Assembly: GCA_021927905.1 (NCBI GenBank) | Contig: BLLK01000062.1 | Coordinates: 248,001 to 312,000, forward strand | DNA length: 64,000 nucleotides | Reading direction: 5' to 3' | From: Chaetoceros tenuissimus | Lineage: Eukaryota > Bacillariophyta > Thalassiosirophyceae > Chaetocerotales > Chaetocerotaceae | In this document: one piece after another, positions 4,652 to 59,336 of the stretch | How the letters are laid out: every line of letters begins with the position of its first letter | Position numbering within the stretch: the stretch's first letter is position 1 | Program-made: the position numbers and the translations under genes | Notes under the pieces: generated by a model | What the model was told of the DNA's origin: nothing | What the model saw: the letters and a program-made list of their open reading frames with translations, nothing else | The model's database searches: none

Positions 4652-7219
4652 ATGACAACACTCAACTCATCTAAACCTCCCCCTCGACATTTACGATCTC
4701 GTAAACGATTCAACCAACAAAAGAAAAACTCTGCACTGTTTAAACTCTGCATCACATGTTCCATCCTCATCTTTTCAATCCTCTTTTTCATTCTTCCATC
4801 CAACTCCTCCACAAACTCAGTAAGATCCAAATTCCATAACATGATTGAACACTACGAACTCACAGGCTATGGACCATCACATCCCAGAGCGGCATTCATT
4901 CTAGTCGCTACTCAAGACTTGTCCGATCCTGTAGAATCTATGCAAAAATCCATTGCAAGTATTTTGGAAACCACGGATCGAAATCGTATTCTAGTGATTT
5001 GTGCAGTCTTTCAACAAAATGTATTGACTCAAGAAGAACAAGAGGCAGTCAATCAAGCTCTTTTAAAATTGGATGGAGGAGTGGGGACACATTGGCATGG
5101 AACTACTCAACATACACATTCCAATGCGATAGACTCCGATGGTCATTCGCATGGACACAAAATTAAAACAATCTTTTCAGATTCTACTTCTGTATCCTCT
5201 TCCAGAAAAGATGCAGCTACCTATATAAAGTTTTTAAGTGAAGAACATGAACAACACAAACTGAAAGCAAAAGAGGAACAAATTATAACTATATTGATGC
5301 GACCTGATTCTATCATAACCACCAGTCACTGGATTGATACTGTATCTCATGCACTCATTTCAAAAGATGGTACTACACAAAATGCTATATCGTTTGCAAG
5401 TAGTAGTACAGAAACGATTAATGAGGGTGAAACCAAATCTATAAATTTGGAATTGAAACCAATAAAGAGTCATGCTTCAAATGATGCAATGACACTGACA
5501 CAGGGTCAATCTTACCCCAGTCCTATTCTTGAGGGGTCAGTCACTGCCATGACTTTAGAAACTTTTCATAATTTGCCTGTCAAGGATTTATACTTGGATA
5601 GTCACTTTGGAAGTGATTTAGAATTGAGTTTGAATTTATGGATGTGTGCGGATGGAATTGATATTGTAAGTTCTCTCAAGGCGCAGACTACTCTAGGTGT
5701 GTTGCAACATAAAGATAAAGCAGGTATGATGCCGTCTAGTATGGTACGACTTGTCAATGTTTGGATGGGAAAAGAGAGTTTTATTGGGAAAAAGGTTTTG
5801 GAATTGTTGGAGGGGAATTTGGGTGTCAATGTAGGACAATTGGAAAAGGATGGGAAATTGAAGGAATTGCCAGACAAGAGTTTGTTGAATCATTGTAGGA
5901 CTTTTGAATGGTTTGCCAAGGAAGTCAATGTCGCTTTGGAGAAGGAATTGAAACAGATCAAGGGTGAGGTTAGTGAGAAGAAGCCTGCCGTTGTTTCCGA
6001 TGGACAAAAGAGAGGTGGACATTTGGCACCGGGTTTTGAACAACACTTGAAAGATGCCAAGAATGCATTCATGAATGGTGGTGATTCGAATGCTTTGGGG
6101 CAACTTCCATCCAAACCTCTTAGTGAGACAAACAAACAAATTATTTCCACTGCGAAAATGGTGGATTTGAAATATGTCGATGTAACGAATGGACATACCG
6201 AAGATCCTCATCGTGGTGCCATGGATGAAAATGGAGTCTTTGGATACGTACATGATGCAACTGCTTTGAGAAAGAATCCACCACCATTCAAATTCGTAAA
6301 GGAACAAGTCAATTGTGATAAAAACGACGGAGACAAGAAAATGTTGACGCAAAAGGTTTCCATTGACTTTGCGGCGGATCAAGCTGCCAATCACATTGCA
6401 GAAACTTCAGGAAAACCTCGTGCGAAAATCTTTTGTTTAGTGTATACTATTGAAAAGTTTCATGATCGTATCCCTGCTATTCGGGAGACTTGGGGTCAAA
6501 AATGTGATGGGTTTATGGTTGGATCTACCAAGACGGATCCTGCTCTCGGTACTGTCAATATTCCTCATGAAGGTCCTGAAGAATACAATAATATTTGGCA
6601 AAAGGTTAGATCCATGTGGAGCTACATTTACGATAACTACTATGAGGATTATGACTGGTTCCACATTGGTGGTGACGATTTATTCTTGCTCGTGGAGAAC
6701 CTTCGACTATATCTAGAGTCGGAAGAAATTCAACTTGCTGCAAATGGCGGCGAGCGCCTTCCAACCGGTAAGGAAACACAGCAAGTGCCACTATTCCTTG
6801 GTAGACGCTTTAAAGAACAAGGAAATTGGGATCGTATCTTCAACTCGGGAGGTAGTGGATATACCATGAACAAAGCTGCACTGAAGGCATTGGTAGTGGA
6901 TGCTTTCCCTACATGTATGCCTCATTTGCATACTTTTGCGGAGGATGTCATGGTTGCACAATGCTTCCGTAATAAATTGAAGGTATTCCCATTTGATACC
7001 AAGGACGAAACAGGAGCAGAGAGATACATGCCATTTGCACCAAAGCATCATTTGAACTACAGAATTCCAAAAGACGTCAACAGTGATTGGTATGCTAATT
7101 ATAGTATTGACATCAAGGAAGGACTTGATCATTGTTCAGACCATTCAGTTGCATTCCATTACATTAAGGGCGATCTAATGAATAGGATGTATGCTATTCT
7201 TTATGGTCATTGTGCATAG
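4652..7219 (+). CDS. GT27-like / GT31 fusion glycosyltransferase
   Basis: An 855-residue type II membrane protein: basic cytosolic tail, one TM segment at ~29-50, then two lumenal glycosyltransferase-like regions. Residues ~70-425 resemble polypeptide GalNAc-transferases (GT27): LELSLNLWMC matches the family's ELSF-x-WMC block, a VWM element follows, and CRTFEWF matches the conserved CKSFKWF near the end of that domain. The usual DSH metal motif appears as DSI (residues 219-221), so this half may be inactive. A His-rich loop lies at ~145-170. Residues ~590-850 resemble core-1 beta-1,3-galactosyltransferase (GT31): RIPAIRETWG, DWFHIGGDDLF (metal DxD region), NSGGSGYTMNKAAL and FAEDVMVAQCF. Intronless, ATG in good context. 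Likely a Golgi enzyme of O-glycan or cell-surface glycan synthesis. GT31 assignment is strong, GT27 moderate. Confidence 0.85.
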   Translation: MTTLNSSKPPPRHLRSRKRFNQQKKNSALFKLCITCSILIFSILFFILPSNSSTNSVRSKFHNMIEHYELTGYGPSHPRAAFILVATQDLSDPVESMQKSIASILETTDRNRILVICAVFQQNVLTQEEQEAVNQALLKLDGGVGTHWHGTTQHTHSNAIDSDGHSHGHKIKTIFSDSTSVSSSRKDAATYIKFLSEEHEQHKLKAKEEQIITILMRPDSIITTSHWIDTVSHALISKDGTTQNAISFASSSTETINEGETKSINLELKPIKSHASNDAMTLTQGQSYPSPILEGSVTAMTLETFHNLPVKDLYLDSHFGSDLELSLNLWMCADGIDIVSSLKAQTTLGVLQHKDKAGMMPSSMVRLVNVWMGKESFIGKKVLELLEGNLGVNVGQLEKDGKLKELPDKSLLNHCRTFEWFAKEVNVALEKELKQIKGEVSEKKPAVVSDGQKRGGHLAPGFEQHLKDAKNAFMNGGDSNALGQLPSKPLSETNKQIISTAKMVDLKYVDVTNGHTEDPHRGAMDENGVFGYVHDATALRKNPPPFKFVKEQVNCDKNDGDKKMLTQKVSIDFAADQAANHIAETSGKPRAKIFCLVYTIEKFHDRIPAIRETWGQKCDGFMVGSTKTDPALGTVNIPHEGPEEYNNIWQKVRSMWSYIYDNYYEDYDWFHIGGDDLFLLVENLRLYLESEEIQLAANGGERLPTGKETQQVPLFLGRRFKEQGNWDRIFNSGGSGYTMNKAALKALVVDAFPTCMPHLHTFAEDVMVAQCFRNKLKVFPFDTKDETGAERYMPFAPKHHLNYRIPKDVNSDWYANYSIDIKEGLDHCSDHSVAFHYIKGDLMNRMYAILYGHCA

Positions 7220-16417: not shown

Positions 16418-17856
16418 TTAGCATTTAAACCTCGGGGGATTCCTTGAATCATCTGGTGTCGTGAGAACTATTTGATCTGGAAGATAGTGATAATTATTTT
16501 TCATTCCTCGGAAAAAGCGTGTTATTTCCACATCAACTGAAAAAGATGATACCTCAGTTCCTATAAATATACTAGATTGAACTGCCAAGAAAAAATCAAT
16601 GATACTGCCTGAAAGCGAGTAATATTTCGAGTACACTTCATGACCTGATTGTTTTGCAAGTTCAACTCCAGCCTCGACAACTTTGACTTTTCCATTCCAA
16701 AGACCCCGTTCGACAGCATTGTTGATTTCTTGTAGATTGTGCTTCGCAAGAACGTTATTGTCCTTACCGTTTACCTCGGATTCTAAAATGCCCCTATTGA
16801 AAAGTATCAGTAATGTAGTAAATGGTGGTTCTGCAAACTTTCGTTCCAAAGAAGTGATGATATCAGTAAAATTTTTGACCTTTAAATCTAAACACATGTT
16901 GTGCTAAACAAGAAATATCGCAGATGATGTGAGTAAAAGTGCCTTGAGATTGACTCTTCTGCATCATAATTTGGACGCACCTTTTGCATGTCGGGTTCAA
17001 CCCTTGCATGTAAAGCTAGATACCCATCTTCGATTCCATGTTTTGCGATAAAGCCATCAATGATCCTTTGTAGTGACGGGTGAGGTCTAAATGCACCCTG
17101 CATCATTTTTAAATCCACACTGTTTCGTTCCTGTTTACCTTCTGTAACCCTTTTCACATACTGTTTATATTGATTCTGAGCTTGAAGCCCTGTATCACCG
17201 AACGCATATGGTTGCTTTGCTTTAGACAAATTTTGAACTTTCCATCGTAAGGATGGTGTTTCATATTTCCCAAATATATTCACATCTGGATGTAAATTCT
17301 TGTCATATTCTACGAATCGAGGTAGGACAGGATAAAAAGAATTCCAATGCACAACATCAAAAAATAAATCGTGCCGGAGTCTTTGATTTGTTCCAAACAA
17401 ATCCTTCCATTTGATACTTGGTGCAATTACTTGCGAAAAGTTTTTCTCACGCATTCCTAGCATGATTCCAGTCAAGGTCATGTATTGATTTCGAAACCCT
17501 CCAAATGGTCCGTGCGAATATGCAATAGTTGACACATTTGATAATGGTATCATGGAAGCTTTCTTTCTATATTCATAATCTTGTAGACTGAACCATCCTA
17601 AAGTTCCACAATAATTGCTAGAAGTACTGGTATTAGTTGAATTCAAGACTAATTTCTTTGGTTTCTGTGCGTGGTATTGCTCACTTTTAAAAGATCTGAA
17701 TTGCTTTGCTAGCTGTGAAGACGAACCACTTTTGAAATCTCTTGTTTCAATGGCAGCTCTGAAGTAGCATATGCTCAACACACCCAATGATATGAATGTG
17801 AGGAGAAATGCAATCAACATACTTGATGTTTTGCGAGATGAGCGTTGTGACCTCAT
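16418..17856 (-). CDS. O-fucosyltransferase-like type II membrane protein
   Basis: Two exons: 17856-16981 and 16903-16418, separated by a 77-bp intron (GTGCGT...TTTAG, phase 0); about 453 residues. A TM anchor lies at ~14-33. The lumenal part has YSHGPFGGFRNQYMTLTG (the GGxxNQ substrate-loop pattern of GT-B O-fucosyltransferases), a central LALHARVEPDMQKHN (family H-x-R-F/V-E-x-D-M), and a C-terminal SGSIIDFFLAVQSSIFIGTEVSSFS (the acidic/serine block normally used in GDP-fucose binding). These point to the GDP-fucose O-fucosyltransferase superfamily acting in ER or Golgi. The exact acceptor is unknown. Located among other secretory genes. Confidence 0.7.
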
Positions 17857-27121: not shown

Positions 27122-28891
27122 TTAATTTACTTTACTAATGTTGTCAACCCAAGCCAAAGCGTTTTGGAAGAAAAGTGCGGAATCTTCGCTCGAAACATTC
27201 TTTGTTAACATTTCATTCAGCATATTGTCAGTCTCGTCAATGTTAGTTCCCTTGTCCATGTTGCGACCATGACTACTTGCTTTCGAGCTTTCTTCTGAAG
27301 CAGTGTTTAGAGTTCTACTGCTTTTTAAGGACTCATTGCCCAAACTTTGGTCATCTGTTGCGTAGATTGCATCATCGCTAATTGCCAAGTTATTCGTCAA
27401 TTGCTTAATGGCAATTAAATTCGAAGAAGTTCTTTGCTGTAGTTTCCTTCCTGGAAGCTCTGGTGAAGGCGTTCTACTATTGCTCTCTTCACTATTGGGC
27501 CTCGAATGATCAGATACATATGCTTGAGGACGAAAAGGCTGGCTATTAACATCATTAGCGTCTGTTTCACTGACATATGTTGTCGTTGTCTGTGGTTGAA
27601 TATTAGTGCTCTGGATGCTTAATGGCGTGATTGTATTGGTGTTGGTCAGATTCGTCGAATTGACAGCTTGAACTTGCTGCTGTCTCAACTGTTGTTGCTG
27701 TTGTTGTTCCATGACTTGCTTCAAATTATCTGCCAACATTTGTATTTGCGCAGTCGTCAGAGAGTTCAGGTCCAAGCCATGAAGGTTGGTACCGATAGAA
27801 GAATGGTTCATGAAGTTTCCATTCAAAAAACCATCGGTGTTATTGCTTGTTGGAACTTGCAATGGAGTAACTGATAAGCTTGGAATAGTAGCACCAATAC
27901 CGTTACTCTGCACAGTACCAATACTGTTGGCATGAATAGATTGGGCTTGGACAGTAGCACCGATACCATGACTCTGCACAGTACCGACGCTACCGGTATG
28001 AATAGATTGGACTGGGACAGGAGCACCGATGCCGGTACTTTGCACAGTACCGACGCTACTGGTATGAAGAGGGATTGGGGCCATACCGACAGCTAGGCTT
28101 TGGTTACTCGAAAGATTGTGCTGATTCATTGGAAAAGACAGTGCCAAATTATTTGTAGCTCTGGTGAGAGATGCAGTGCTGCTCCCATCACCTTGGTGAC
28201 GTTTCTTATTATACCCTTCGAGAATTTTTTTCAAGAATCTACTCTTTTTCTTTTTCATGCGACCAGCCTTTGTTGTGGCGAGATTTCTGCACATTTGGTA
28301 ACACAAAGGTCTCTTTCCTCTCATGAATTTAGGGTGAAAGTAGTATCCATCTTCCTCTTTCAAATCTTTCGAAATTCTCTTGTAATCATAGAGGTTGAGC
28401 TGTCGGCGGAAAGATGCGAAATCGGACTGGGTAGGGAAGTGTACAGGTTGGATCAAGGTCTCGAATGCGGCTCTGTCATGAACCCTGAAGCGATTACCAT
28501 CCGGATGCCATGAAACAATCTTGGCAATATTGGGATCAGTGCTTGCATTCTCAAGAATATCATATAGAATTACTGGGAAGGGGTCCTTGATCTGGGAGTT
28601 CTGGTGGTTCCTGTCTACCTTCTTGGTGTTTGTCTCTTTGGCATGGAGGCTTTTTGCAGCCTTGCTCCGAGAACTCTGTGGAGCCTCGACTTCGGATTTC
28701 TCTGAGAGATTGCATTGGGTGTGAACTAAACTCTTGATTGCACTATTAGTCCATTTCAAACCTTTGGGGCTACTAGGCTTCTTGCCTAGTTTGCCTTCCC
28801 CCTTTTCCGAGGATTTTCTAGATGAGCGGGCAAAACTCCAGCTCATCCTTGAACCGCCTTTCTCTGAAGACTTGTTGGATGAGAAAAACAT
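27122..28891 (-). CDS. HSF: Heat shock factor-type transcription factor (1)
   Basis: 589 residues from the first ATG in frame (28891; the frame is open slightly further). A basic N-terminal region precedes the HSF DNA-binding domain at ~104-202: FPVILYDILEN, IVSWHPDGNRFRVHD, FPTQSDFASFRRQLNLYDYK (recognition helix) and YYFHPKFMRGK. The C-terminal half is Gln/Ser/Asn-rich, with a polyQ run and three 22-residue tandem repeats around SVGTVQSTGIGAPVPVQSIH. HSF-type genes are greatly expanded in diatoms, so this need not be a heat-shock regulator. Nuclear. A coiled-coil HR-A/B trimerisation region is not obvious. Confidence 0.88.
   Translation of the reverse strand: MFFSSNKSSEKGGSRMSWSFARSSRKSSEKGEGKLGKKPSSPKGLKWTNSAIKSLVHTQCNLSEKSEVEAPQSSRSKAAKSLHAKETNTKKVDRNHQNSQIKDPFPVILYDILENASTDPNIAKIVSWHPDGNRFRVHDRAAFETLIQPVHFPTQSDFASFRRQLNLYDYKRISKDLKEEDGYYFHPKFMRGKRPLCYQMCRNLATTKAGRMKKKKSRFLKKILEGYNKKRHQGDGSSTASLTRATNNLALSFPMNQHNLSSNQSLAVGMAPIPLHTSSVGTVQSTGIGAPVPVQSIHTGSVGTVQSHGIGATVQAQSIHANSIGTVQSNGIGATIPSLSVTPLQVPTSNNTDGFLNGNFMNHSSIGTNLHGLDLNSLTTAQIQMLADNLKQVMEQQQQQQLRQQQVQAVNSTNLTNTNTITPLSIQSTNIQPQTTTTYVSETDANDVNSQPFRPQAYVSDHSRPNSEESNSRTPSPELPGRKLQQRTSSNLIAIKQLTNNLAISDDAIYATDDQSLGNESLKSSRTLNTASEESSKASSHGRNMDKGTNIDETDNMLNEMLTKNVSSEDSALFFQNALAWVDNISKVN
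27876..28072 (-). repeat. In-frame tandem repeat, 66-bp unit, ~3 copies
   Basis: TGCACAGTACC recurs at 27909, 27975 and 28041, a period of exactly 66 bp (22 codons) inside the HSF gene. Copies diverge by a few bases. Confidence 0.85.
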
Positions 28892-29861
28892 AAGAGGCAA
28901 GCGGTGGCGATTGTACTTTTAGTTCTAGATTAAGGAGCGGGCTTTACACGGGATATGAAGTGATTCTTTTGCTAATCGCGATCTTCGAACATGTGTTGTT
29001 TGGTGTTGCTTATCTGCTCTCTAGAGATTCTCCGAGGCGACGATGAGAGCCTCTTCTGGAACGCCTGCAGAACAAAAAATCTTGTTTCGCCGAAGCTCGG
29101 AAGGGGAAGACGCCTCGAAGACAAAAATGAAAAGAGACATTTCAGACATGACTAGTTAAAAATAGTTTTTATATTAAACTATTTCAACCAGAATTCCAAT
29201 AACATATCATGTGTCAAGATGAAACCGCTTTGATTCAAAAGTAACATGCTAGACACGAGTAAGACTTTTGGAGAAAGCTAGAAACAGCTGTATTGAGGAG
29301 AATAGAAGCAGAACAGTTTCTGGCTATCTACAGCTATGTACACAATTTTGTCAACAGAAGAAAAGGAATTAATCATCTTGCACGAAGAGTACTACCAGCT
29401 CCAGCTAGTTTCAGTTGCTAGATGAGGGATATTGTCAAAATAGATTTTGCAAAAAGTAGAATAAAAATTATAATTGAAAAATTAATGACAGATTCAGATA
29501 GATGATGAAAGAACGATTCTTTGGCATCTTCGCACTCATGTTGTATGACGCATCTATGTTGTTGTGTGTGCATGATGCTGAAAATTTGAAGAAGGAACGT
29601 ACTGTAAGTAGATACGTACGGGTTAAAACAATCTGAGCCGTGAGAGCCAATCATTTTTTCCAAGTTAGCTAGTCATTTTACATGATGATGATGATGATAG
29701 TTGCAAGGTAGATAAATAGAGACTCTACCTTGGATAGTTGTTCGTTGTACGAGAAGATGATACCATGTTGATTGAGGCAAATGGCACAGTTCATGTTTCA
29801 TATATTTCCCATTTTGCCTCAACATCTTTGAATTATTTGATCCTACTTATGAATAACAAAA
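28892..29861. other. Divergent intergenic region HSF / rlmH
   Basis: 970 bp between divergent starts. It contains a short (ATG)n run at 29682-29697. ORFs on the minus strand at 29418-29663 lack family resemblance. Confidence 0.5.
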
Positions 29862-44524: not shown

Positions 44525-45571
44525 ATGTTTTCAACCTATATAACGCCCACGTATGTCTTGGTTGTTTCGCTTCTGTTGGTTGTTCTCATAAAAGTCGAGA
44601 TAAACTACAATATTCTACAACTACAAGAGGCATCGAAACAAAGCCTTCGTCCGAGTAAAGGATTTTTACCCAAGTGCGTTGACCAAGTATATACTCAATC
44701 ATCAAGGAAACAGAACCTTCTCAAAGGTGCTATGGTATTTGAAAATCGACATGAATGGCCTGTTTGTAAATTTGAGAAAGACGGACCTATACCTGTTGTA
44801 TTCATTGTTCTTGGTCGATCTGGCAGTGATGCAACATGGTCTACAATATCGAAGCTAGCAGGCGGAAAATCACCTTTGGGAGAACACACTGGAGAAAATA
44901 AAGTGAAAGCTATGGAATTCTTAACTAAAATGAAAACAGAAGAAGCTGGGAAATGGTGGTTAACTGCTCATTTATGCGAGTTTGCACACAAGTACTGTGA
45001 TAGACCACTTGCTGCATTCAAGTGGAAGCCATTTATTGATTCATGGAAGCTGCCCGCGGCACAAGGTATTCTCAAACAGTTAGCAGAATTCGATGACCCG
45101 AGAATCAAAGTAATCTACATGACGAGAAATCCTTTAGATGTTATGATATCCAACTACAAACATGAGCGTAACAAGAATCTTACGGCGCATTGTCACACAG
45201 GGGATCAGTTATGTATTGAAGAGCTCAAAAAGTTAGGTACTGGATTACATCTTCCAACTGAAACTCTTGTGCAAGATTTGAAGAATCAGTTTGAAGCATT
45301 TGCATTTTTCGAGAAAACTCTCGATGAAATGAATATTCATCATGTAAAGACTACATATAAGAAACTATATCAACAGGATCATGCAGAGGAATGGATGAAG
45401 CTATTTAAATTTTTGGGAAAAGGACCCACAGAAGGCTTGACTATGGATGATATAGTGAACAGTTTTGAACTTGCACCCACGTTTCAAAAGAATCACAATG
45501 TTACATTATCGAATTATGAGGAAGTTCGTGATCTTTTGATCGGTACTGACTTTGAAAACTTATTGCACTGA
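44525..45571 (+). CDS. Type II membrane sulfotransferase
   Basis: 348 residues with a TM anchor at ~9-26. The lumenal domain has VVFIVLGRSGSDATWSTI, matching the PAPS 5'-phosphosulfate loop (here GRSGSxAT), and IKVIYMTRNPLDVMISNYKH, the 3'-phosphate-binding Arg/Ser block. Later FFEKTLDEMNIHHVKTTYKK and WMKLFKFLG match the usual C-terminal helices. It should transfer sulfate from PAPS to a glycan or protein in the Golgi. A CHTGDQLC segment could form a lumenal disulfide. Diatoms sulfate their extracellular polysaccharides, so that is a plausible role. The Harbinger element lies immediately upstream and may affect the promoter. Confidence 0.85.
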   Translation: MFSTYITPTYVLVVSLLLVVLIKVEINYNILQLQEASKQSLRPSKGFLPKCVDQVYTQSSRKQNLLKGAMVFENRHEWPVCKFEKDGPIPVVFIVLGRSGSDATWSTISKLAGGKSPLGEHTGENKVKAMEFLTKMKTEEAGKWWLTAHLCEFAHKYCDRPLAAFKWKPFIDSWKLPAAQGILKQLAEFDDPRIKVIYMTRNPLDVMISNYKHERNKNLTAHCHTGDQLCIEELKKLGTGLHLPTETLVQDLKNQFEAFAFFEKTLDEMNIHHVKTTYKKLYQQDHAEEWMKLFKFLGKGPTEGLTMDDIVNSFELAPTFQKNHNVTLSNYEEVRDLLIGTDFENLLH

Positions 45572-54389: not shown

Positions 54390-55709
54390 ATAAAATTTTT
54401 TGGCTCTATAGTAATGTCATTTAATAAATACATAGGATATTTTTTTAAGTTGTCATGAATATCAAAATTGAAATTGGATTGAATTTTACACAAATCTTCA
54501 ATTGTCTCATTTGGTCTTTTCTTCTACCATTATTTTAGCCATACAGAAGATCATTTTTTCAAGATGAAAAATATGCCGATGCTCTACTCTGAATTCCTCA
54601 ATAGCAACAAAAGCACCAAACGATCATAAAACATATCGGGACAAAAAACAACCTAAAGTACTGAGCCTTGGCAGATATTTAAGGATGTGACAAAAGAATA
54701 TGATAAATAATGTATTCTTTCTTAGTTCTTAACCATTAAAAGACGTTGTCTCCTGGTCTCTGGATCCTGCTTGTTTTACCTTACCATTTACAATAGGATC
54801 ATATATCCTAGGTTATAAGCGTTTTTAATCACTGTTTCAGACGAGGCATTTATTTTCAATAAAAATAAATTCAATAGACATGAAAAATTATTTCATATCA
54901 TTCCTGATTTTTTCACACAACAGCAATCCCATGGACGATAAAGAATTTTGCCAATGTATAGTAGTCGAAAAGCAGAGGTCTAGAGGTGGTCTCATTCTTT
55001 TTTGAAGTTTTTTACAAAATTACCACCAGTGCATCATGATCATTGTCACCCGCTAAAAATATGGGGAAAGACTATTTAGTAATACAAAAGAAACTCTGCT
55101 CTGATGTAACTTTCATTTACGTGATTGAATAGAGTTGACCTTGGAAATTGGTAAAACAAACATTCCCAGGAAAAGAATGCAAATCATTTGACGGTTTCCC
55201 CAAACAATACAGAACCCCAGCTCTTCCTACCAAAATGAAGTCAAGATTCATAATAATAATTCTCACGAGGAGAGATGTTAGTTGAGAAGAAGGGGTTTTG
55301 TGGTGTTTAGGAGACGCTTCAAAAAAAAGAAAATCAGCATTGTTTCGAAATCGAATGTAGGAGGAGAGTGAAAATAAGTTTTTCTTTACTACCAGCTTCA
55401 AGAGAAAAATAATTTCAAGAAATGTGAAATAGAAGAAAGAGCGAAATCTTTTGGGAGTATTAAGGAGAAATGATTGGAGTCTTGATGTTTATGTATTGCA
55501 AAATAATAATAAACCAACGAATTTCATTCGAAAAATAGGTTACGTACGGGAAGAAACAGCTGCTCGTCGGCTCTCTTTTCGTGTCTACTCCGAAAAATTG
55601 CCTGCCCTCTGAAGCAACAACAGCAAAACACATATCTTTCGACCTCTTTTCACAAAGCGAGCAACAGACGATCATTGGTACAACTCAACTCCAATCACCC
55701 ATAATTAGG
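54390..55709. other. Intergenic, 1.3 kb
   Basis: AT-rich. A minus-strand frame at 55117-55401 contains a GRAG...HSFPGN..F arrangement that faintly recalls a diatom DUF6824-type GRG...HPGN motif, but it is too degraded to call. No other feature. Confidence 0.45.
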
Positions 55710-57356
55710 ATGACAGATAAGGACTCAAAGGATACTGATACTCCTCTCACTGAAGACAATGCTGGACGTGAAGCATTAGGCGTATCATTTGAAGATTTCC
55801 TTGAAGCCTTGTTCTTCATTGGCGCGGTCTTTGTCCTTGGAAATGCCTTCTTCTTAGGTAAAACCTTCTTCGTTGGAGCACTTTTCTTCGTTGGAGTAGT
55901 CTCCTTCTTTGGAGCAGCAGATAAAGACTCAAAAGATACTGATACTGCTACTTCTCTCAGCACTGAAGACAATGCTGCTGCACGTGAAGCATTCAGCGTA
56001 TTTGAGGATTTCCTTGCTTGTGAGATTCAAGCCGAGAATGATGCTCTGAAAGAGGGCAACAATGATCTTATGTGTAACAAGAAAACCCTTCAAGATGTCA
56101 CCATCAAAGCTTATGGAACAAAGATACATTCCTACTCTATTCTTGAAGGTATCGATAGTCAAGATGAAATCATGTGCAGAGGCCTCGAAAGCATTGCCAA
56201 TGATGATCAGATTGGATCTTATGGCCGTAGTCAGATCGCCAAAGATAGAAATCTCGGTCGAACTCTCACATTTCCAATTGAAGATACTTCATTTACAATT
56301 GAAGCCTTCAAGCATGATGTTGAAGTGAAAGGGGGCAATGTTCTAATCCCATCCCCCTCCATTTCTATTGACTATGCAAACGGATTAAGTAGGATGAATG
56401 ATTTTTGTTATGAATGTCTTCATTTGACATTGAACAAAGATGACACTGTGAGCTTCTGCTTTTTCCAAATGCAGGCAATATTCAAGGGAAAAGTTCTCAA
56501 CATTGGTCCTAAAGATATGGAACAAGGTATCAAGGCATTGGCGGCTACCATTGGCAGGGCTGCATTCTTCACTGCTGAAGTTATTGCATCTAAAATGGAA
56601 GGAGAAGAGTTGGACTACTCCTTCATTGACGGCCTGCTCCACGATAGCCCAGATATGAGGTTTATTCTAGAGTCAATCAGCTTACCATTGACACAAGGTG
56701 TTCAGAAAGCCTGTGACTTGCTTCAAGGACTAGAATCTCGCAATGCAATAGGAGAAACTGTGGACAAGGCACCAACTCCCAGTACTGAAACAGATTCTCT
56801 CAGACGTAGTGTTGCTGTCTCGACTGTCCGTGGGGTTGTGGTTGATAAGCTCTGTGCAAACAAAAAGCTACATAGTGAACGAAACACTTTGCTTTCAATG
56901 GGACACCTCTTCGTAAACAGAGTTGTTTTGACACAAGGAGATGATACACTTGTTGAAATGAATCTAGGTGATGCAGCATCTGTGTCTATTGGTGGTCGTG
57001 ACTGTTTCAAATTTGAAGACATCGAAGGAGTTTCTATTGAACTGAATTGGTTGGATAGGTTTAGTATTACAGTTGGAGTAAATGCTTGCTACCAAACTGA
57101 ATCTAAACCCCACAATCAAGTAATTCCCGTCGAAAATGGTGTACGGTTTCGGTATGGCAACGCGTATGTTGTAGGAAATGTGGTGAGCAAATCCAGGGAA
57201 GATTTGGAAGTGTTTGCACAAGAGGGGATCGAAAGAAAGATGCAAAAATGCACTGAATCTGGAGAAAATCCAGGCTTACCAAACAGCATCTTGTTTGAGG
57301 TGAATGAAATCGTATTCTCAAAACCTCAAAGGAATTTTTACATGACTCGTCTTTAG
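55710..57356 (+). CDS. Family X protein (intact paralog), unknown function
   Basis: 548 residues from the ATG at 55710 (the frame opens earlier with GTG only). It begins with a duplicated module: TDKDSKDTDT...TEDNAGREALGVSFEDF and again ADKDSKDTDT...TEDNAAAREAFSVFEDF. Between the copies lies a repetitive hydrophobic stretch (FFIGAVFVLGNAFFLGKTFF and following) that looks like a TM hairpin in this frame. The main body (~110-460) holds HSYSILEGID, LNIGPKDMEQGIKAL, DSPDMRFILESI and LCANKKLHSERN, all shared with the broken copy at 1847-2848. The C-terminus has FRYGNAYVVGNVVSKS and a final Phe-rich end. No known domain is recognised. It is the only intact copy in the window. Confidence 0.7.
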   Translation: MTDKDSKDTDTPLTEDNAGREALGVSFEDFLEALFFIGAVFVLGNAFFLGKTFFVGALFFVGVVSFFGAADKDSKDTDTATSLSTEDNAAAREAFSVFEDFLACEIQAENDALKEGNNDLMCNKKTLQDVTIKAYGTKIHSYSILEGIDSQDEIMCRGLESIANDDQIGSYGRSQIAKDRNLGRTLTFPIEDTSFTIEAFKHDVEVKGGNVLIPSPSISIDYANGLSRMNDFCYECLHLTLNKDDTVSFCFFQMQAIFKGKVLNIGPKDMEQGIKALAATIGRAAFFTAEVIASKMEGEELDYSFIDGLLHDSPDMRFILESISLPLTQGVQKACDLLQGLESRNAIGETVDKAPTPSTETDSLRRSVAVSTVRGVVVDKLCANKKLHSERNTLLSMGHLFVNRVVLTQGDDTLVEMNLGDAASVSIGGRDCFKFEDIEGVSIELNWLDRFSITVGVNACYQTESKPHNQVIPVENGVRFRYGNAYVVGNVVSKSREDLEVFAQEGIERKMQKCTESGENPGLPNSILFEVNEIVFSKPQRNFYMTRL

Positions 57357-57878: not shown

Positions 57879-59336
57879 TTATACATCAAAAATTTTGCTC
57901 TTATCTTGTACATTTATGGCTTTCATCTCCTGTTCATTAATTGGTGCGAGATTTGAAATTTCGATACTATCATTGAAAGATCCGAAAGCTCTGGAGTCCC
58001 CTTCATCTAGTAAGCTTCGCCGAGAGAGATTGGAATTATCAAAAGGGTTAAGTGCATTATTTGCATTAGTTTCAAAGATATTTCTCAAGCTTGTACCTGG
58101 ACTTTCACTAAGAAGGTGATTTTGTATTGCATGTAAATTCTGTAATGCGTTGGGCTGTGAGTGCGCTTGTTGGTTGGAGTTGAAGTATGGACCTTGGTGG
58201 CTTGTAGGATCAAAATTCAAAGGTATGCATTGATTTCTAGCTTGACTGTTACTATGTAGGAGAATATCGCTGAGTTGATTAGCGGAGACTCCTTGCAGAA
58301 GTTCTTCTCCCATCAATCGAGCTTCGGCCTGCTGGATTTGGGACTGGAGTTTTGACAAATTCATCAACATTTGATTGGCGTTGGTAGTAGATGCTGATGC
58401 CGGATTATCTTCCAATTTGATGTTTGAAGCTGGTTTAGAAGAATGAATAGAATCTGCAGAAGGACTTGAGGAGACATTATGTACAGATGCTGATGAAATC
58501 ACGGTTAAGTGCTCACTGTTGGAATCGAATGATTCTCTTTTAAGTGGCCGATTCTTCAGCATGTGCTCTGTACATGGCATTACATCATTTTCATGGCTTT
58601 TTGTAGATGACGGTGGAAGAGGTTCCATACTAAAGAAATGAGGTTCCCCTTCAGGATTAGATGGACCTCTACCATTTCCAGATCCATTTGCAAGTCTCTC
58701 AATAGCACGGCATAGGTATGTCTTTGTGCGCAAAAACATTTCATGATAGTAAGCTCCATTATCAGGCCCGCTTTGTGTTAGACGTTTGAATCCCCAAAGG
58801 TTCAGCTGGCGGCGGAATGAAGCGTAGTGCTTCTGTTTGAAGAATCTAGGAAGAACCTCATCCTCAAATCTTTTCGGGTTGTGCGTAACAAAGCAACGGC
58901 CATGAGGTTGCCATGAAATAATCTTTGCAAGTTGGGGCTCTTTAAGATCTATATGTTCGAGCATGTTATATAAAACCACTGGGAAGGGGACCTTTACACC
59001 ACCCTTGGTGCAAATTTCTATTCTCTCGTTGCAGTTTGCATAGTCCCGATATTCGCGGGTCAACGGTTCCTTTTTCTCTTCATTCTTTGCAACATCTATT
59101 TGGGCATCTGCACCTTCGGGCTGGAATTGAGACAAAGAAGGTTGAATGCTACTATACAATAGACTGTTCGCACTATTCTGATCTTGTGTGGCGCTTACTT
59201 TCTGCTCTTGCTGGTTTTGATGTGCAAAGTGTTGTAACCACTGAGTCCTGTCTTCATTGCTTATAGCAGCATTCCATAGAGACATATTCCCTCCGGTGGG
59301 CATTGCATCATTGAAATTGTTTTGAAAGAAGCTCAT
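57879..59336 (-). CDS. HSF: Heat shock factor-type transcription factor (2)
   Basis: 485 residues. HSF DNA-binding domain at ~115-213: KVPFPVVLYNMLEHID, KIISWQPHGRCFVTHNPKRF, FFKQKHYASFRRQLNLWGFK (recognition helix) and GAYYHEMFLRTKTYLCRAI. The N-terminal 110 residues are Gln/Asn-rich with HFAHQNQQEQK. After the domain come Ser-rich segments, a short coiled helix (MLMNLSKLQSQIQQAEARLM, ~320-345) and an Asn/Gln/Pro-rich tail. It is closer to the consensus HSF domain than the factor at 27122-28891. Nuclear regulator; targets unknown. Confidence 0.92.
   Translation of the reverse strand: MSFFQNNFNDAMPTGGNMSLWNAAISNEDRTQWLQHFAHQNQQEQKVSATQDQNSANSLLYSSIQPSLSQFQPEGADAQIDVAKNEEKKEPLTREYRDYANCNERIEICTKGGVKVPFPVVLYNMLEHIDLKEPQLAKIISWQPHGRCFVTHNPKRFEDEVLPRFFKQKHYASFRRQLNLWGFKRLTQSGPDNGAYYHEMFLRTKTYLCRAIERLANGSGNGRGPSNPEGEPHFFSMEPLPPSSTKSHENDVMPCTEHMLKNRPLKRESFDSNSEHLTVISSASVHNVSSSPSADSIHSSKPASNIKLEDNPASASTTNANQMLMNLSKLQSQIQQAEARLMGEELLQGVSANQLSDILLHSNSQARNQCIPLNFDPTSHQGPYFNSNQQAHSQPNALQNLHAIQNHLLSESPGTSLRNIFETNANNALNPFDNSNLSRRSLLDEGDSRAFGSFNDSIEISNLAPINEQEMKAINVQDKSKIFDV

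Follow-up and report, generated by a model that had tools for sequence, protein, structure and literature searches.

The window analyzed here, i.e., the whole 64,000-nucleotide stretch of Chaetoceros tenuissimus DNA, harbors an uninterrupted open reading frame (ORF) on the forward strand that encodes a protein of 855 residues, and among all ATG ORFs of the window this is the longest [Table 1]. The original prediction of one 855-residue polypeptide hence agrees with a single open frame. For comparison, the longest ORF among 50 random windows of equal size, generated with a first-order Markov model, comprises 235 aa. A codon-usage score derived from 7918 codons in 15 other ORFs of the window is above zero for this frame in all but the first of 27 sliding windows; this first one, which corresponds to the N-terminal tail, gives -0.01. 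The frame also scores higher than the other two forward frames in 26 of these 27 sliding windows, while it ties with frame 2 (to two decimals) in the first. Across the junction between the N- and C-terminal halves of the protein (below referred to as the N-half and the C-half), the six sliding windows that start at residues 421-571 give scores of 0.19-0.41. Because the in-frame codon bias continues through the junction, the two halves are most simply encoded by one exon and an intron at this position is not needed. An open frame of 233 aa runs antisense to the linker and the end of the N-half (positions 5693-6394, reverse strand). The reverse frame that holds it has a lower codon score than the sense frame in the sliding windows covering it and, therefore, it probably represents shadow coding. 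The idea that the N-half and the C-half are internal duplicates gained no support (best blastp E-value 0.23; nothing with phmmer).

Table 1. Features of the 855-residue protein and its gene; positions refer to the window and residues to the protein.
Feature	Position	Strand	Basis
ORF of 855 aa, stop included	4652..7219	+	single open frame
Hydrophobic stretch, residues 29-50, probable signal anchor	4736..4801	+	hydropathy
First part of the N-half, residues 70-287	4859..5512	+	no significant match
GT27-like region, residues 288-425 (profile match starts at 274-277)	5513..5926	+	phmmer, profile, hhalign
Linker, residues 426-589	5927..6418	+	no known domain; codon bias in frame
GT31 core-1-type domain, residues 590-849	6419..7198	+	DmC1GalT1 match, Pfam Fringe
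GDD replacing DDD, residues 674-676 (D181G, DmC1GalT1 numbering)	6671..6679	+	alignment
D765, equivalent of the catalytic base (xED Asp) D255	6944..6946	+	alignment

Elsewhere in the window, the ORF at 16888-17856 (reverse strand) has a sub-threshold match to O-FucT (PF10250, E-value 0.0091; 16.1 bits with a cut-off of 31.5). Its product shows, by eye, an N-terminal hydrophobic stretch and is perhaps another Golgi glycosyltransferase. A sulfotransferase-domain protein (PF00685, E-value 6.3e-9) is encoded at 44525-45571 (forward strand). Two regions at 1826-2848 and 55581-57356 (forward strand), roughly 53 kb apart, carry text that appears similar by eye (REAFSVFEDFLACEIQAEN vs QEAFGVFEDVLLEEITSEN); they may be members of a single gene family, with the former region split over two ORFs. 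The window also includes a heat-shock transcription factor gene at 57879-59336 (reverse strand; Pfam HSF_DNA-bind, E-value 2.4e-21), a gene that by eye is heat-shock-factor-like at 27122-28900 (reverse strand) and a RelA/SpoT-type gene, and none of these genes argues against a diatom origin. An Rfam search of the whole window found nothing.

The mean hydropathy over 19 residues reaches 2.51 in the hydrophobic stretch near the N-terminus of the 855-residue protein, and is at most 0.97 after residue 60. This feature fits a type II membrane protein of the Golgi, which is the probable topology. For the linker between the two halves, neither Pfam (residues 426-593, E ≤ 0.1) nor the PDB (E ≤ 10) gave a match. 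Almost all metazoan members of GT27, the polypeptide GalNAc-transferase family, carry a ricin-like lectin domain at the C-terminal side of the catalytic domain (PMC8724618). No Pfam family for such a domain was detected C-terminal to the GT27-like part, either with residues 426-593 (E ≤ 0.1) or with the whole protein (E ≤ 10). Within the linker, residues 514-546 (6191-6289, forward strand; GHTEDPHRGAMDENGVFGYVHDATALRKNPPPF) appear by eye to be more constrained than their flanks. This segment is without relatives in Pfam, the PDB or viral contigs, and it may be an extension that belongs to this type of GT31.

When the whole protein was compared with the PDB using phmmer, residues 590-849 matched Drosophila C1GalT1 (DmC1GalT1; 7q4i) with an E-value of 9.6e-34 and 38% identity (87 of 227 aligned pairs). 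Altogether 15 rows were recovered at E ≤ 10, and the others are two chains of chondroitin sulfate synthase 3 (3.4e-5 and 4.2e-5), a beta-1,3-glucosyltransferase (0.0031), ten rows for GalNAc-transferases that match the N-half, with E-values starting at 0.01, and a single row for PCNA (0.4). Moreover, the C-half submitted alone is recognized by Pfam as Fringe (PF02434; 28.6 bits, cut-off 21); with the whole protein as the query, Pfam returned no family at E ≤ 10. The core-1-like GT31 region that had been proposed for residues 590-850 is therefore supported both by structure-derived sequences and by a family model. With residue roles as given for DmC1GalT1 in PMC9065035, the alignment indicates that the base D255, the essential W300, the C-His H324 (H836 in the diatom protein), Y325, D182, D183, E150 and K158 are kept. 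In DmC1GalT1, D182 binds the ribose while D181 and D183 bind Mn (PMC9065035). The metal motif D181-x-D183 is incomplete in the diatom protein and reads G674-D675-D676, such that the first Asp is replaced with Gly and the second Mn ligand is retained. Among the residues that contact the acceptor, W300 is kept and Y218 is replaced with Phe; the DmC1GalT1 Y218A mutant is inactive (PMC9065035). Other changes are R152 to Tyr and L155 to Ile, and Y213 is unconserved as well, with a gap or a Gln at this position depending on the alignment. These residues suggest that the GT31 half is an inverting galactosyltransferase that works, or nearly does. Its activity is not certain in view of the changes at D181, R152, Y218 and Y213; in particular, the replacement of D181, one of two Mn-binding Asp, casts real doubt on it.

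A phmmer search of the PDB with residues 70-425 returned 13 rows at E ≤ 10, and all 13 are GalNAc-transferases (best E-value 0.0038). A GT27 profile built from four catalytic domains (GALNT1, GALNT2, pgant9 and a partial GALNT10) gives 31.0 bits on residues 61-435 and 28.2 bits on the whole protein. In the controls, 1000 shuffled versions of residues 61-435 reached 4.8 bits at most, and the runner-up among the 136 stop-to-stop ORFs of the window (≥80 codons) only 1.5 bits. Comparison with GT27 using hhalign gave a local E-value of 5.7e-6. The match spans positions 157-303 of the 310 profile positions, which corresponds to residues ~274-425 of the protein. It includes the Gal/GalNAc-T motif region followed by R-x-x-x-VWM and C-x-x-F-x-W at the end of the catalytic domain; hence, the GT27 motifs that originally had been matched by eye sit within a real match. 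Pfam gave no family for residues 70-425 at E ≤ 10, and NCBIfam, with the whole protein as the sole query, returned nothing at E ≤ 10. As judged from the profile comparisons, kinship with GT27 is secure over a stretch of about 150 residues, and for the remainder of the N-half it is assumed. The entire segment of residues 70-425 had been put forward as GT27-like, and a failure of this segment to match GT27 had been set in advance as the outcome that speaks against it. The result is split; the second part, residues ~274-425, is GT27-like (31.0 bits vs 4.8 for the shuffles), whereas residues 70-287 show no convincing match.

If the N-half is a GT-A domain, residues 70-287 would be its nucleotide-binding part. 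However, the region is not alignable to the GT27 profile, and neither the Rossmann half nor the DxH strand was recognized in residues 61-288. Scored with an N-terminal GT27 profile, residues 61-288 rank 34th among themselves and 1000 shuffles, and phmmer with residues 60-287 against the PDB gave one unrelated row only, a potassium-transporting ATPase (E-value 0.57). D-x-H triplets are present at residues 163, 316 and 518, and more than half of the shuffled versions of residues 61-288 (555 of 1000) include such a triplet; the triplet at residue 316 falls on the D-x-W of the Gal/GalNAc-T motif and not on the DxH. Two candidate strands were rejected after local alignment with three GalNAc-transferases. 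For residues 204-240, which by eye were attractive as the DxH strand, 485, 906 and 449 of 1000 shuffles scored as well, and for residues 77-126 as the first strand the numbers are 538, 40 and 760, where the value of 40 (pgant9) gives no support because the register differs. AlphaFold run without an alignment produced no usable fold, with mean pLDDT values of 34.7 for residues 65-435 and 31.3 for residues 579-855. Since the clear GT31 domain also came out badly, these models are uninformative with respect to the N-half.

Nine residues of the GalNAc-T2 active site, as listed in Table 2 of PMC4388629, are located in the aligned part, and one of these, G308, is kept in the N-half. The others are replaced (GalNAc-T2 numbering): A307 with Glu, G309 with Ser, W331 with His, E334 with Ser, H359 with Val, R362 with His, H365 with Lys and Y367 with Gly, where H365 itself varies among the four GT27 proteins. 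In the HMMER alignment, there is instead Thr in the H359 column, a gap at R362 and His at Y367. A His at the H359 position is absent irrespective of whether HMMER or MAFFT is used. The two programs disagree in this loop, where the N-half has a His three residues past the position aligned with H359, and if the alignment is off here this His could be a metal ligand. Moreover, the WGGEN motif of GT27 reads HFGSD. Of the columns that do not vary among the four GT27 proteins, the N-half retains one of eight in the active site and 19 of 43 elsewhere, where a single column with a gap in the 855-residue protein was scored as lost. The direction of this difference would be in line with decay of the active site, but it lacks significance (Fisher p 0.13), and general divergence explains the loss of these residues equally well. 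Together, these replacements make it unlikely that the N-half carries out the standard GT27 reaction. GT-A families that have lost the DxD or the C-His yet still work have been described (PMC7185993) and, hence, the N-half might have a chemistry other than that of GT27. The residues of the N-half weaken the suggestion that two consecutive steps, GalNAc addition and galactosylation, are coupled in this protein: eight of the nine alignable positions have changed and the DxH region is unrecognizable.

The unusual layout is, as far as the alignments go, real for residues 274-425 and 590-849. The reading that we favor, and to which we give about an even chance, is a core-1-type galactosyltransferase, probably active, that carries a fused accessory pseudo-domain derived from GT27. 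In this model, which draws on one sequence, the 855-residue protein would be a Golgi-type membrane protein with the topology predicted above. The GT31 domain at its C-terminus probably has beta-1,3-galactosyltransferase activity, and the acceptor would be a protein bearing GalNAc or a similar sugar. The N-domain, with a presumed GT27-like fold, would be derived from, or a sister to, the GT27 catalytic domain and would have lost that chemistry. Most likely it would serve the GT31 domain in cis, either by positioning the (glyco)peptide acceptor close to the site of galactosyl transfer or by stabilizing the GT31 fold, as the inactive GT31 protein COSMC does in trans for the vertebrate C1GalT1. 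Relatives were found neither in viral contigs (queries: the whole protein, the C-half and DmC1GalT1 alignment, the GT27-like alignment and the linker) nor in prokaryotic genome contigs (queries: the C-half and the C-half alignment). Given that these collections represent viruses and prokaryotes, this outcome says little about diatoms.

Chondroitin synthases pair a GT31 half with a GT7-type half, and a different and rather unlikely reading is that the diatom protein is a chondroitin-synthase-like glycan synthase with the halves reversed. The N-half would then be an active GT-A enzyme of other specificity within the clade of GT27, GT60, GT7 and the chondroitin polymerases. The grouping of GT7, GT2-CHS, GT27 and GT60 in one clade (PMC7185993) is in keeping with this, as is the position of chondroitin sulfate synthase 3 as the second molecule in the PDB list for the C-half (3.4e-5). 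Likewise, families without the DxD or the C-His work by other means, and the change of Asn to Asp in the GEN part of the WGGEN motif places an Asp where inverting families have their base (PMC7185993). However, all 13 PDB rows for the N-half are GalNAc-transferases and none is a GT7 protein, the C-half is far nearer to C1GalT1 (9.6e-34) than it is to chondroitin synthase (3.4e-5), and no metal site was found in the N-half.

A bifunctional enzyme, in which the N-half initiates an O-glycan with GalNAc or GlcNAc on Ser/Thr and the C-half adds beta-1,3-Gal, would agree with the order of the homologies in one chain, GT27 before GT31. It also has parallels among protists, where fusions of consecutive glycosyltransferases exist in the form of a GT2 beta3GalT joined to a GT74 fucosyltransferase (PMC8724618, PMC11468063). 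Against this stand the single active-site residue kept out of nine, HFGSD in place of WGGEN, the unrecognizable DxH strand and the chance-level occurrence of D-x-H triplets, and we regard this enzyme as quite unlikely. A decidedly unlikely reading is a one-chain O-glycan synthase that perhaps also occurs in other algae. Its GT27-like half would have given up the retaining, DxH-metal chemistry for a new mechanism, possibly inverting with the Asp of the changed GEN as the base, so that one protein would both initiate and galactosylate a novel algal O-glycan.

The changes D181 to Gly, Y218 to Phe and R152 to Tyr in the GT31 half and the loss of the active site in the N-half agree with the view that both halves are inactive or that the gene is decaying, but the 855 open codons with coding bias throughout and the retention of the GT31 base, the C-His and W300 make it very improbable. 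That the resemblance to GT27 is due to chance, as the modest best single-sequence E-value of 0.0038 and the unmatched half of the domain might suggest, is hardly credible in view of the 31.0 bits of the GT27 profile (at most 4.8 for 1000 shuffles and 1.5 for the other ORFs of the window) and the hhalign E-value of 5.7e-6.

A GT27-related domain joined to a core-1-type synthase makes this locus a candidate gene for the extension of algal O-glycans. It may also represent a lineage of GT27 in protists, and it bears on the reported absence of GT27 from protists other than apicomplexans. According to a 2021 review (PMC8724618), GalNAc-transferases among protists are restricted to apicomplexans and absent from other protist genomes, and GT60 polypeptide GlcNAc-transferases are present in diatoms, oomycetes and algae. 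A 2020 review predicts, on purely computational grounds, that O-GalNAc cores are possible in Phaeodactylum and Porphyridium, and that a GALNT1 homologue is possible in Botryococcus (PMC7140410). Brown algal genomes have about nine GT31 genes each and GT60 has been reported, while GT27 goes unmentioned for brown algae in the available part of that source (PMC11468063). A fusion of GT27 and GT31 does not appear among the matches listed in the open-licence literature, as judged by titles and the beginnings of abstracts.

Compared with known systems, the C-half resembles C1GalT1 (T-synthase; GT31, Drosophila 7q4i) in that the xED base, the C-His and W300 are kept in residues 590-849. It differs in having GDD instead of DDD, R152Y and Y218F, and in being preceded by 589 residues that include the GT27-like region. 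The N-half shares the second part of the catalytic domain, residues ~274-425, with the GT27 polypeptide GalNAc-transferases, but its active-site residues are replaced, the first part is unrecognizable, no lectin domain was found and a GT31 domain is fused to it. The polypeptide GlcNAc-transferases of family GT60 are the expected initiating enzymes in such organisms (diatoms and other protists). Pfam contains a GT60 model, and with the HMMER filters on no GT60 family was obtained at E ≤ 10 for the 855-residue protein in this comparison by family model. GT60 and GT27, together with GT7 and the GT2-type chondroitin polymerases, belong to one GT-A clade (PMC7185993). The GT2-GT74 enzyme of Dictyostelium, Toxoplasma and Pythium likewise has two glycosyltransferase modules per chain; unlike the situation in the diatom protein, these modules are from other families and both are active. 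COSMC (C1GALT1C1), which has lost the DxD and the xED and acts as a chaperone (PMC7185993), would be a functional parallel, i.e., an inactive glycosyltransferase-derived partner of a core-1 synthase. While COSMC is a separate GT31 protein, the partner here is GT27-related and part of the same chain and, if the pseudo-domain reading is true, the diatom protein would correspond to COSMC and C1GalT1 acting in cis.
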